Shown here piece by piece: positions 13,996 to 38,216 of a stretch of DNA of 39,006 bases. The notes under the pieces are model-generated. The model did not search any database. It worked only from the letters and a program-made list of their open reading frames with translations, and had not been told where the DNA came from. The position numbers and the translations under genes were made by a program. Position 1 is the stretch's first letter. Each line of letters opens with the position of its first letter. The stretch lies in the NCBI GenBank assembly GCA_013001755.1, contig JABDLY010000026.1, forward strand, positions 1 through 39,006, read 5' to 3'. The DNA comes from Sphingomonadaceae bacterium. Its GTDB lineage: Bacteria; Pseudomonadota; Alphaproteobacteria; Sphingomonadales; Sphingomonadaceae.

Positions 13996-14020
13996 CGCTT
14001 GTGGCCCTTAAACCGATTGC

Positions 14021-14091
14021 GCTGAACTTGTCGAAGTCCTGTACTTCCCGTTTTGTCACCAAGAGAGGTACAGACCTTCGACAAGTTCAGC
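14021..14091. repeat. Palindromic REP-like element between ubiA and rsmE
   Basis: Arms GCTGAACTTGTCGAAG (14021-14036) and its perfect reverse complement (14076-14091) form a 16-bp stem. CTGTAC / GTACAG (14039-14044 and 14068-14073) can extend it inwards. The arm sequence is related to that of the element at 21402-21474. Both neighbouring genes are transcribed away from it, so it is not a terminator and is more likely a dispersed repeat. Confidence 0.8.
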
Positions 14092-14113
14092 CCGAACGGA
14101 GTAAATCGAACCC

Positions 14114-19962: not shown

Positions 19963-21507
19963 CTATTCTGCCGAGGGTGCTGTAGTCGGCAGCTCGTCCA
20001 CATCGCCAATCGCGCGCCACAAAGCGACGCGTTGAAGCGCGCGATCGGCGCGGGCGATGATCTCGGCGCTGCGCGTGGCGTTGGCGGCGCGCTGCGCATC
20101 GATGATCGTCAGGAAGGTATCGAGGCCGCGACGATAGCGGATGCCCGCCAGCCCGACATTGTCATTGTCATAGCCGAGTTGTTCGGAGAGCGCCGCGGCG
20201 CGCACATCGGCAGCCGCTATCGCGCCGAGCGATCGTTCGACATCGCCGAGCGCGACGAAAACCTGGCGGCGATAGGCGGCGAAGGCTTCGGCGGCTTCGG
20301 CCTGGCGCTGGTCGATCCGCGCCTGGGTCCGTCCGAAATCCAAGAGCGGCCCGGCGATGCCGGCGCCGAGCGAGGCGACGACGGCATCGTCCGAAAACAG
20401 ATCCCCGAAAGCGAGCGCGATCAGCCCGATGGCGCCGGATATCGAGAAGCTCGGGAAGCGGGCGGCGGCTGCGGAGGCAATTTCGGCATCGGCTGCGGCA
20501 AGCCGGTTTTCGGCGGCGACGACATCGGGACGTTGGCGCAGCAGGATCGACGGCACGGCAAGTTCGGGGAGCGCGGTATCGACATCAAGCGCGGTGGCGG
20601 TCTCATGGCTTACCGCGAGCGCCGCCTCGATCGCGCCGACCGATTGCGCCGTCAGCGTCGCCAGCGTTGCCAGCGCCGCTGTACGATCGATCTCGACCGG
20701 CCCGCGCCGCGCTTCGGCATCGGCGCGCAGCGATTGCGCGCGAACCAAATCGAAGCCCGGCGATATCCCGGCACGCGACCGCACATCGGTCAGCCGCTCA
20801 AGATCGCGCGCTTCGGCAAGATCCTGCTCGATCACCTCAAGTCGAGCTTCGGCCGCGCGATAACCGATAACGGCGCGCGCAATATCCGACGCCAGCGCGA
20901 CGCGCACTGCGGCGGCATCGGCGCGTGCGGCATCGACCCGGGCGCGAGCGGCACGCTCCGAAGCACGCAGGCGCCCGAAGATGTCGGCATCCCAGCCGGC
21001 ATCGATCGATGCACTGTAGATTGTCCGGTCGGTGTCGAAAGGGATGTTCTGCGGCAAACCGCCGAAGGTCGCCGTACTCGTGCGCTCGCGCGACACACCA
21101 CCGCTTGCCGTAACGTTGGGAAGCCGTTCGGCCGCCGCGCCACGTGCACCGGCCCGCGCCGCGTCGATGCGGGCGAGCGCCACCTGCAGGTCAGGCGCAT
21201 CGGCCAACGCGCGGGCGAGGAGAGCCGCATAGGCCGGGTCTTCGAACGGTAGCAGCGAACGCGTATCGATCACCGCATCGACTTCGCCTGCGACCAGTGC
21301 GAAGCGATCGGGAATGTCGACTTCGCTCGGCGCACGGGCGCCCTGCACGGTAGCGCAGGCCGCCAGAGGTACGAGCAGCGCCGCCACAACAAGCGATCGG
21401 GCTGAGCCTGTCGAAGCCCTGTCCTTACCTTTTCCCACGCGAAGAAAGAAAGAACGACCCTTCGACCGGCTCAGGGTAATCGGATCGAGGAAAGGCTTGG
21501 AGTTCAT
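19963..21507 (-). CDS. Outer-membrane efflux lipoprotein, NodT/OprM (TolC) family
   Basis: This is the outer-membrane channel of the tripartite efflux system encoded by the operon. The 514 residues contain two OEP (TolC-like) repeats, with VVALLVPLAAC-type lipobox cleavage expected at the Cys in VPLAACATVQG (residue 51). Family signatures are DAGWDADIFGRLRASERAA and FPSFSISGAIGLIAL. The ATG at 21507 overlaps the stop of the membrane-fusion gene (ATGA), so this start is firm. However, about 38 residues precede the hydrophobic signal core. Residues about 12-37 (LSRSKGR ... ASTGSAR) are encoded by a palindromic repeat at 21402-21474, which has lengthened the signal-peptide n-region in frame. An in-frame GTG inside the element (21438) might serve as an alternative start. 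It is last of four genes controlled by the divergent TetR. Confidence 0.9.
   Translation of the reverse strand: MNSKPFLDPITLSRSKGRSFFLRVGKGKDRASTGSARSLVVAALLVPLAACATVQGARAPSEVDIPDRFALVAGEVDAVIDTRSLLPFEDPAYAALLARALADAPDLQVALARIDAARAGARGAAAERLPNVTASGGVSRERTSTATFGGLPQNIPFDTDRTIYSASIDAGWDADIFGRLRASERAARARVDAARADAAAVRVALASDIARAVIGYRAAEARLEVIEQDLAEARDLERLTDVRSRAGISPGFDLVRAQSLRADAEARRGPVEIDRTAALATLATLTAQSVGAIEAALAVSHETATALDVDTALPELAVPSILLRQRPDVVAAENRLAAADAEIASAAAARFPSFSISGAIGLIALAFGDLFSDDAVVASLGAGIAGPLLDFGRTQARIDQRQAEAAEAFAAYRRQVFVALGDVERSLGAIAAADVRAAALSEQLGYDNDNVGLAGIRYRRGLDTFLTIIDAQRAANATRSAEIIARADRALQRVALWRAIGDVDELPTTAPSAE
21402..21474. repeat. Palindromic REP-like element inserted in frame in the outer-membrane factor gene
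   Basis: The 15-base arms at 21402-21416 (CTGAGCCTGTCGAAG) and 21460-21474 (reverse complement with one mismatch) are separated by 43 bases. The arms resemble those of the repeat at 14021-14091. The element lies between the start codon and the signal-peptide core of the gene and keeps the frame open. Read on the minus strand the arms encode LSRSK and ASTGSA-type peptides. Confidence 0.8.
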
Positions 21508-33691: not shown

Positions 33692-33779
33692 CGTGCATCT
33701 CATGCCATAGGCCCCATATGCCCGCTATCAATACCGTCTGCGCCGTGTGGATAATCGGCAAGCGCCCGGAAACCGGACG

Positions 33780-34859
33780 ATGAACCCTGGAAGCATCGCG
33801 TCGGAGCTGCTGCGCTGGTACGAGGCGCACGCCCGCATGTTGCCCTGGCGCGCGCCCCCCGGGGCTCCGCGAACCAATCCCTATCGGGTCTGGCTTTCCG
33901 AAATCATGCTCCAGCAGACGACTGTGGCGGCGGTACAACCCTATTTCGCCAAATTCATCGAAAACTGGCCGACGGTCGAGGCGCTGGCGGCGGCGGACGA
34001 TGACGATGTGATGGCGGCTTGGGCGGGGCTCGGTTATTACGCCCGCGCCCGCAACCTCATCGCGTGCGCCAAAATCGTGGCGGAAGATCATGGCGGGCGG
34101 TTTCCGGAAACTGAGACGGCGCTGCGCGACCTGCCGGGGATTGGCGATTATACGGCTGCGGCGATCGCAGCGATCGCTTTTGGCGAAGCTGCAATCGTGG
34201 TCGATGCCAATATCGAGCGCGTCATAGCGCGGCTCGAAACGATCGACACACCGTTGCCCAAGGCACGGCGCGAGATTCGCGCCGCGGCGGAAACACTGAC
34301 CCCGCCCGATCGCGCGGGCGATTTCGCGCAGGCGATGATGGATCTCGGCGCGGCTATCTGTACCAGCCGCAACCCGGCCTGCGGCATCTGTCCGCTGAGC
34401 GAGCAATGCGCGGCAGCGGCGAGCGGCGAGCCCGAGGCATGGCCGGTCAGGAAATCCAAAGGCCCGAAACCGCAGCGCCACGGCACGGCCTATTGGCTTG
34501 AACATCAAGGCGATGTTCTGCTCGTCCGCCGTCCCGGCAAGGGCATGCTTGGCGGCATGCGCGCTTTGCCGAGCGACAATTGGTGTGCTCCGGCGAAGAC
34601 CGGAGCCAAGCTCGATCCGCCGGACTGGGCTCCGGCCTTCGCCGGAGCGCTAAGCGGTCCCCGGCGAGTGATCGGTACCGTCGACCACGTCTTCACCCAT
34701 TTCGCGCTGACGCTTGACGTGGTGACGACGAAGGTCTTGACCCGGCCCGACATCGACGGCGAATGGTGGCCGGTCGGCCGGATTGAAGAGGCTGGGCTAC
34801 CTACGCTATTCGCCAAGGCCGCTAAGCTCGCCCGCGCGCTGGAGGAAGAAACCGAATGA
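33780..34859 (+). CDS. mutY: A/G-specific adenine DNA glycosylase MutY (with in-frame palindromic insert)
   Basis: MutY removes adenine mispaired with 8-oxoguanine. The 359-residue protein has the catalytic Glu41 (WLSEIMLQQTTV), the helix-hairpin-helix LPGIGDYTAAAI (118-129), the catalytic Asp142 (VVDANIERV), and a [4Fe-4S] loop Cys194-X6-Cys201-X2-Cys204-X5-Cys210. The C-terminal NUDIX-like domain recognises 8-oxoG and includes HVFTHFAL. ATG at 33780 has GGA upstream; the frame is open to a GTG at 33747. Residues 270-290 (APAKTGAKLD ... APAFAGA) are encoded by a palindromic repeat (34587-34648) that sits in the variable part of the 8-oxoG domain, just before HVFTHF. The stop overlaps the nudC start (ATGA at 34856-34859). 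Confidence 0.95.
   Translation: MNPGSIASELLRWYEAHARMLPWRAPPGAPRTNPYRVWLSEIMLQQTTVAAVQPYFAKFIENWPTVEALAAADDDDVMAAWAGLGYYARARNLIACAKIVAEDHGGRFPETETALRDLPGIGDYTAAAIAAIAFGEAAIVVDANIERVIARLETIDTPLPKARREIRAAAETLTPPDRAGDFAQAMMDLGAAICTSRNPACGICPLSEQCAAAASGEPEAWPVRKSKGPKPQRHGTAYWLEHQGDVLLVRRPGKGMLGGMRALPSDNWCAPAKTGAKLDPPDWAPAFAGALSGPRRVIGTVDHVFTHFALTLDVVTTKVLTRPDIDGEWWPVGRIEEAGLPTLFAKAAKLARALEEETE
34587..34648. repeat. Palindromic repeat inserted in frame in mutY
   Basis: Two 21-base arms at 34587-34607 and 34628-34648 are reverse complements with one mismatch, 20 bases apart. Each arm is itself nearly palindromic, with CTCCGG/CCGGAG around a CGAAG or CTTCG core. The whole lies in the mutY frame and encodes APAKTGA and APAFAGA at its two ends. 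It differs in sequence from the repeats at 14021 and 21402, so it belongs to another family. Confidence 0.85.
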
Positions 34860-38161: not shown

Positions 38162-38171
38162 GGCTGCGGGC

Positions 38172-38211
38172 CACGCTGTCCCAACGCAGCGCGTGCTCTC
38201 TGTAAGGAGAG
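38172..38211 (+). promoter_or_regulatory. Structured leader of serC with hairpin over the ribosome binding site
   Basis: Two hairpins can form. The first pairs CAC GCTG (38172-38178) with CAGC GC GTG (38087-positions 38087 excluded; 38187-38195), with a two-base bulge and an 8-base loop. The second pairs CTCTC (38196-38200) with GAGAG (38207-38211) and covers the ribosome binding site AAGGAGA (38204-38210), six bases before the ATG. A conserved RNA motif before serC has been described in alphaproteobacteria; whether this is that motif is my inference. Confidence 0.5.
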
Positions 38212-38216
38212 AATAT

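Follow-up and report, generated by a model that had tools for sequence, protein, structure and literature searches.

The mutY gene of a Sphingomonadaceae bacterium carries within its reading frame a segment that is very probably a copy of a dispersed repeat, a head-to-head (HH) REP dimer, transposed, in the lineage of this bacterium, into a loop of the C-terminal NUDIX-like domain, with the loss of about 29 bp of native loop, and surviving as a harmless passenger. The window, i.e., the whole stretch of DNA analysed (39,006 nucleotides), is contig 48 in a 2.49-Mb draft assembly of 244 contigs that is 90.5% complete. The coordinates are collected in Table 1; genomes, contigs and loci are designated by G, C and L numbers, respectively.

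Table 1. Position of mutY in the window and of the parts of the repeat element that it contains.
Feature	Position	Strand	Remarks
mutY (A/G-specific adenine glycosylase)	33747..34859	+	370 codons from GTG 33747
REP dimer, head-to-head, 62 bp	34587..34648	+	in frame as residues 281-301, APAKTGAKLDPPDWAPAFAGA
Head trinucleotide TGT, left arm (consensus YGT)	34584..34586	+	142 arm rows
Left REP arm	34587..34610	+	2 changes compared to the consensus arm
14-nt spacer	34611..34624	.	reverse complement resembles the spacer type of related species' dimers
Right REP arm	34625..34648	-	0 mismatches to the consensus arm
Right head site	34649..34651	-	AGC on the - strand, not YGT; eroded or never present

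Regarding the gene itself, its product scores 292.5 bits against the curated equivalog profile TIGR01084 (cut-off 286.5) and possesses the HhH-GPD domain, the 4Fe-2S domain with its cysteines and a C-terminal NUDIX_4 domain, placing it among the MutY enzymes. An alternative start, ATG, lies at 33780, from which the element is counted as residues 270-290, and as 281-301 from GTG 33747. The 3' end overlaps the beginning of an NADH pyrophosphatase-type NUDIX gene, and a DciA gene adjoins mutY in divergent orientation. The reading frame remains open and is conserved both before and after the element, as proposed in an earlier note on this DNA, which described an insertion in frame leaving the downstream motifs intact. 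The two inverted arms of 21 bases described there were confirmed by alignment, with 20 of 21 positions complementary (34587-34607 and 34628-34648), and they can be extended to 24 nt, 22 of them complementary, separated by 14 nt. Each arm is also nearly self-palindromic, as had been noticed, folding singly at -12.6 and -15.8 kcal/mol as RNA, while the whole element reaches -47.5 kcal/mol (z -6.5; none of 200 shuffles as good) and a z of -5.7 when folded as DNA. This RNA fold, the copies found in the genome and the absence of matches to the reversed pattern show that the palindrome in mutY is not due to chance.

The anatomy of the repeat was deduced from 142 rows of arms found in the genus, among which some palindromes appear twice, once for each strand. 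As seen in these rows, each REP unit has a YGT head, a stem of 8 bp, a loop of 4 nt and a CCAG tail. The head is well-conserved, position -2 being G in 136 rows, position -1 T in 128 and position -3 a pyrimidine in 122, and it is followed by the stem GCTCCNGC/GCN'GGAGC, where N-N', the stem pair 6/15, varies mostly between G-C, T-A and C-G. The loop is often GAAG, GAAA or GCAG, and the tail is mostly CCAG or CTAG; in mutY, the left arm has a CAAG tail and one stem mismatch. A GC...GC stem base is present in most arms, and a minority with ATTCC or TTTCC stems are the partners of GCTCC arms in heterodimers. The genus set comprises 59 HH dimers and 16 lone-arm rows, the pairing script having sought the HH orientation only, with spacers of 14, 16, 26, 34 or 35 nt in 51 of the 59 dimers.

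The repeat is not restricted to mutY, in agreement with the expectation of further copies in the genome. A query of 121 bases retrieved similar elements at C65, C94, C140 and C215 of the same genome, where C78 additionally carries a lone arm and C160 a variant dimer, and the reversed-pattern control of the arm search gave no match. Allowing up to three mismatches, the arm was found in 7 of the 10 genus genomes, own included (111 rows; reversed control 0), and the single-contig genome G004 alone has 30 arm matches. The genus set leaves out 9 of these 111 rows (G005 C2; G006 C279, C296, C297, C312 and C314; two of G007 C7; G008 C4). Dimers of the exact pattern occur in 9 of 149 genomes and those with a looser right arm in 35 of 397 family genomes, both with a control of 0; their distribution across the family is patchy, with up to 37 in one genome. 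It could also be considered that slippage or template switching copied and inverted a single hairpin inside mutY, with no mobile element involved, as the two arms are almost perfect inverses of each other and bacteria undergo templated inversions. This origin is extremely improbable, since the arm, the left head, the tail and the spacer match or resemble elements elsewhere in the genome and in other species.

In addition, some dimers of different species have the same or similar spacers, from which it appears that the arms move together with the spacer as a single unit. The mutY spacer, when reversed, reads TCCGGCGGATCGAG; a related 16-nt spacer, TCCGGACGGTTCGGGT, has the same sequence in G004 and in G007, which are different species, and another, TCCGACGGTTCGGGA, belongs to the variant dimer at C160. 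Comparing the mutY spacer with 12 short spacers, the summed similarity was equalled in 2 of 5000 shuffles, and that of the best single spacer in 23. The mutY copy appears to belong to this arm-plus-spacer unit.

The element at 21402 of the window is of another type, as claimed previously: together with a copy at 14008-14104, the one at 21402-21480 forms a second repeat family with CTTCGACARGYTCAG arms, which has 60 + 62 matches in the genome with up to one mismatch (0 and 1 for the reversed pattern), and many of the rows listed form inverted pairs about 56 bp apart. The idea that the window holds two copies of repeats within coding sequence did not stand, as the copy at 21402, of this other family, lies at a doubtful N-terminal. 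There, an outer-membrane efflux ORF (19963-21507, - strand) has an N-terminal extension (21387-21507) made of the CTTCGACARGYTCAG repeat, whereas the gene caller starts this ORF at 21387. The copy would encode only the first 40 residues or so, ahead of what looks like a lipoprotein-like signal, making the coding status of this copy doubtful, and it may be located upstream of the true efflux start. At the gathering threshold, Rfam recognized only a tRNA and a serC leader in the window, the latter (RF00517) at 38164-38216 with 46.4 bits.

The insertion site in MutY is the length-variable loop that precedes the HVFTHF strand, consistent with the position first reported, just before HVFTHF in the 8-oxoG recognition domain. 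There are 43 residues from MRALP to HVFTHF in this protein, compared to 32 in all the genus relatives in which both motifs are present (7 of 8), with HSFTHF replacing HVFTHF in L032. In an alignment of 82 rows (82 of 89 mutY loci, 7 remaining outside), the loop between W279 and H314 has 36 residues here and 21-27 in the 81 relatives. Moreover, no arm of this kind is present inside the mutY match in the loci of the best 80 named MutY relatives, L127 and L134 having arms outside their match. The comparison with relatives that had been suggested thus shows the segment to be absent from them, and their shorter loops without such an arm contradict the possibility that all homologues have an equivalent loop. 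The titles of these 80 relatives are nearly all of genera that we take to be Sphingomonadales, one being given only as Alphaproteobacteria and one as Actinobacteria. The latter contig (L150) has a sphingomonad-like mutY, 60% identical, and is probably a mislabelled metagenome bin.

As the element has 62 bp and the net gain is 33 bp, about 29 bp of the native loop are gone. Thus, the earlier claim that residues 270-290 were added is right in its numbering from ATG 33780 but not in the amount, as MutY gained 11 residues net and not 21, while the element itself encodes about 21. This native stretch would have been lost with the insertion or through an indel shortly afterwards. The nearest MutY are only 66-70% identical, so that the exact empty site was not seen, and insertion plus deletion is indistinguishable from stepwise change.

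Residues E52, D153, C205, C212, C215 and C221, which we take to be catalytic and cluster residues, are among those invariant in the 82-row alignment. Structure prediction, as had been suggested, for this MutY and for a relative lacking the insert indicates that the fold is kept and that a loop of low pLDDT appears only with the insert. The AlphaFold model of MutY has a mean pLDDT of 88.8, and residues 283-290, within the insert, are its only internal stretch below 50; a natural relative without the element, modelled from a 50-row alignment, has a mean of 93.6 and no residue below 50. When compared to the full-length crystal structures of mouse, human and bacterial MutY/MUTYH, the model reaches Z values of 36.4-37.7, so the predicted structure keeps the MutY fold despite the insert. 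From these conserved residues, MutY is inferred to be active with the insert, which would be a linker-like stretch of Ala, Pro, Lys and Gly in a flexible loop, with little or no function of its own.

Considering all copies, the main pattern is gene avoidance, with a few survivors that keep the frame. Genes were called by a codon-usage script, with uncertain starts, giving a coding fraction of 0.84 for the genus loci, and the 4 of 59 genus dimers inside called genes are far below the chance expectation at this fraction. A further dimer of G007 (L309), which accounts for one of the nine rows left out of the genus set and is outside both sets, lies between open frames and would make it 4 of 60. 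In other genera, 6 are in genes among at least 119 distinct dimers in the matches listed, which are a sample, with L225, L233 and L306-L310 (own-genus or filler loci) dropped before this count; overall, about 5% of the dimers, genus and other genera listed, are in genes. The proposal that such insertions are a source of new peptide is then literally true, but the event is rare. The neighbouring genes are co-directional or convergent for 48 of the 59 genus dimers and 108 of the at least 119 others listed, and many copies are close to gene ends. These positions, together with the very stable hairpin, could be related to a regulatory RNA or DNA site working inside mutY, such as an mRNA hairpin or a site for gyrase or another protein. 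It is highly unlikely, however, as no Rfam family reaches the gathering score at the element, the mutY of the 80 relatives' loci lack the arm and the hairpin is not followed by a run of T.

Besides mutY, the in-gene dimers of the genus are found in a hydantoinase/oxoprolinase-like gene (G001), in dnaE2, encoding an error-prone polymerase (G006; 1120 bits, cut-off 939), and in an mfd fragment (G006; 796 bits, cut-off 800). Three of the 16 lone-arm rows are also inside called genes, one being in truB (G001) and another, in a DinG/YoaA-like helicase of G006 below the curated cut-offs, corresponding to a fifth in-gene dimer; the third, near the end of a monooxygenase ORF (L210), was not counted as in-gene. 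The matches of dnaE2 to seven relative genomes break at about residues 520/550, with 3-15 bp between the parts, and in an eighth genome, a single match spans the site with 20 residues fewer. Similarly, the helicase matches break at about 359/386 in seven genomes (3-12 bp between), an eighth spanning the site with 21 residues fewer. A local comparison gave +25 aa for dnaE2 (two relatives, same register) and for the helicase (five relatives). The mfd matches break at about 310/340 in eight genomes, G006 having 30 residues more than each of them. This net insertion exceeds the 68-bp dimer (L204, 1548-1615) by about 22 bp, possibly a target duplication, as the flanks share GCGCnGGG; at the compared in-gene sites, the flanks are too diverged for target duplication to be read.

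In the other genera, the genes are AccC/PccA-like (two species), ispE, glyS (two genera, with the dimer at distinct positions) and an E2 acyltransferase, where it sits between the lipoyl and E3-binding domains. The AccC/PccA-like copies (L228 and L327) are in frame at the same place and have a nearly identical spacer in two species of one genus, for which reason the copy was probably kept since their ancestor. The ispE dimer has a 62-bp core in the same frame as that of mutY, giving SAPAKAGAQ...WAPAFAGAQ, so that parallel peptides are encoded in different genes. Regarding glyS (L258, residues 376-400; L317), the dimer is intact in G036, and the same site in G237 has an apparently decayed copy, translated as TPAKAGV...MPAFAGMT, besides a second, intact dimer near the C-terminal. 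Counting the AccC/PccA-like pair once, nine distinct in-gene dimers besides that of mutY were found among the matches listed for related genomes.

The census of the repeat and of its frame, which had also been proposed, revealed that the first arm is read in one frame (APAKAGAQ or like) in 8 of the 10 distinct in-gene dimers, those of mfd and the helicase using the other two. With n = 10, the binomial P is 0.0034, or 0.010 after correction for three frames, the preferred frame having been chosen after viewing the same data. In the APAKAGAQ frame, the covarying stem pair falls on fourfold-degenerate positions, and stem changes are silent because the covarying bases are the third positions of CCN and GCN. 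These features suggest a wider but unlikely reading, in which REP dimers would be protein-compatible mobile DNA, with the frame under selection, the hairpin drifting without change of the peptide and a linker fed repeatedly into genome-maintenance genes in some lineages. For the harmless passenger preferred here, only those insertions that preserve the frame and add an innocuous peptide would persist.

Repair genes hold 4 of the 5 in-gene dimers of the genus and 0 of the 5 found elsewhere among the matches listed, and enrichment in repair genes as a general rule was rejected on this latter count. It could be proposed that the insertion is adaptive, tuning MutY activity and the mutation rate, and that REPs are retained in repair genes for this reason, considering the four genus cases in repair or damage-tolerance genes (mutY, the error-prone polymerase, mfd and the DinG/YoaA-like helicase) and the similar tendency in other species in the main text of Di Nocera et al. 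2013 (PMC3733652). This is distinctly unlikely, as three of the four are from one genome (G006), the genes outside the genus (AccC/PccA-like, ispE, glyS twice and the E2 acyltransferase) have other roles than repair, and the insert is a low-confidence loop in the model. The probability of at least 4 in 11, with the truB lone arm counted, is 0.0007-0.0085 at assumed repair shares of 4-8%.

As for its mobilization, the copy would have reached mutY as a transposing hairpin form, moved by an enzyme acting in trans. REPINs possess a GTAG head and a flanking RAYT gene, and RAYT transposases have been proposed to move them via a hairpin form. The RAYT transposase domain (Pfam Y1_Tnp) gave no match in the own draft genome or, despite its arm matches, in the single-contig G004, and occurs in 2 of the 10 genus genomes. 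None of the eight Y1_Tnp loci examined, this being the only domain sought, has arms directly adjoining it; L080 has two hairpins, one CGTC and one GCTCCCGC, about 1 kb from the transposase. A RAYT as the mover was rejected, as Y1_Tnp is present in 5 of 11 element-bearing genomes and 3 of 18 comparison genomes, the latter matching none of the dimer patterns but possibly holding divergent copies, which gives no usable association. The Y1_Tnp genes of G006 and G008 (L080 and L081) are located between long inverted repeats containing CGGTGACAGT, and that of G146 between inverted repeats as judged by the flanking 14-mers. A plasmid search returned one weak Sphingobium match with no annotated feature.

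Comparing with known systems, the closest are the CGTC-1 REPs described in the main text of Di Nocera, De Gregorio & Rocco 2013 (PMC3733652), mostly from alphaproteobacteria, with sphingomonad species named, and for which no dedicated transposase was known. According to that text, they are mostly located between convergent or co-directional genes, with some copies in genes, many of these in DNA replication and repair and some in frame; thus, the surprise of a copy in mutY is limited. The CGTC-1 type is described with an 8-bp stem, a 4-nt loop, a CCA tail and predominant HH dimers, and the family of the mutY element shares the stem and loop lengths, the tail, the predominance of HH dimers (59 compared to 16 lone-arm rows) and the lack of an associated transposase gene (eight Y1_Tnp loci, Y1_Tnp alone). 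Meanwhile, CGTC stems are said to start 'almost invariably' with complementary A and T after a CGTC (or TGTC/CCTC) head, whereas here, YGT stands directly on a stem that starts G-C/C-G (GCTCC...GGAGC). Because head and stem base differ, the mutY element is regarded as a variant of CGTC-1 and not a member, a separation based on the main-text description (PMC3733652), and a subtype listed in that work may be identical.

The Rickettsia RPE-4 and RPE-6, equated in that main text with CGTC-4 and CGTC-1, are likewise palindromic repeats in frame within genes of functional proteins, differing in the sequence of the arms and in the host. The highest number of in-gene CGTC repeats given there is that of R. 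conorii, compared to the low in-gene share of the dimers here. REPINs, in the description of Bertels & Rainey 2011 (PMC3116915), are mobile units of two inverted REP hairpins and a spacer, and the present dimers are also formed by two inverted REPs with a conserved spacer (identical in G004 and G007, similar in mutY); however, the mutY-family arms lack the GTAG head and no cognate RAYT flanked by the same repeat was found. TIRYTs are Y1 transposases between long terminal inverted repeats (main text of PMC3733652), resembling the Y1_Tnp genes of G006, G008 and G146, but the CGGTGACAGT repeats are unrelated to the mutY element. The words 'mutY' and 'glycosylase' are absent from the main text of PMC3733652, and the literature search returned no report of a REP copy in mutY. 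As far as these searches show, what is known of REPs is extended by the mutY case, the preference for one frame and an in-gene copy common to two species.

A repair glycosylase is then added to the proteins that carry a translated repeat, and REP dimers with a variant head and stem are described in Sphingomonadaceae, with a testable regularity offered for them, namely one preferred frame and synonymous stem covariation. If the reading of protein-compatible mobile DNA is true, the repeat would feed a standard Ala/Pro/Lys/Gly linker into proteins. The movement of CGTC-like REPs and their presence in repair genes were left open in 2013 (main text of PMC3733652), and genomes with about 20-37 dimers, together with G004, having 30 arms and no Y1_Tnp match, make this question more tractable.
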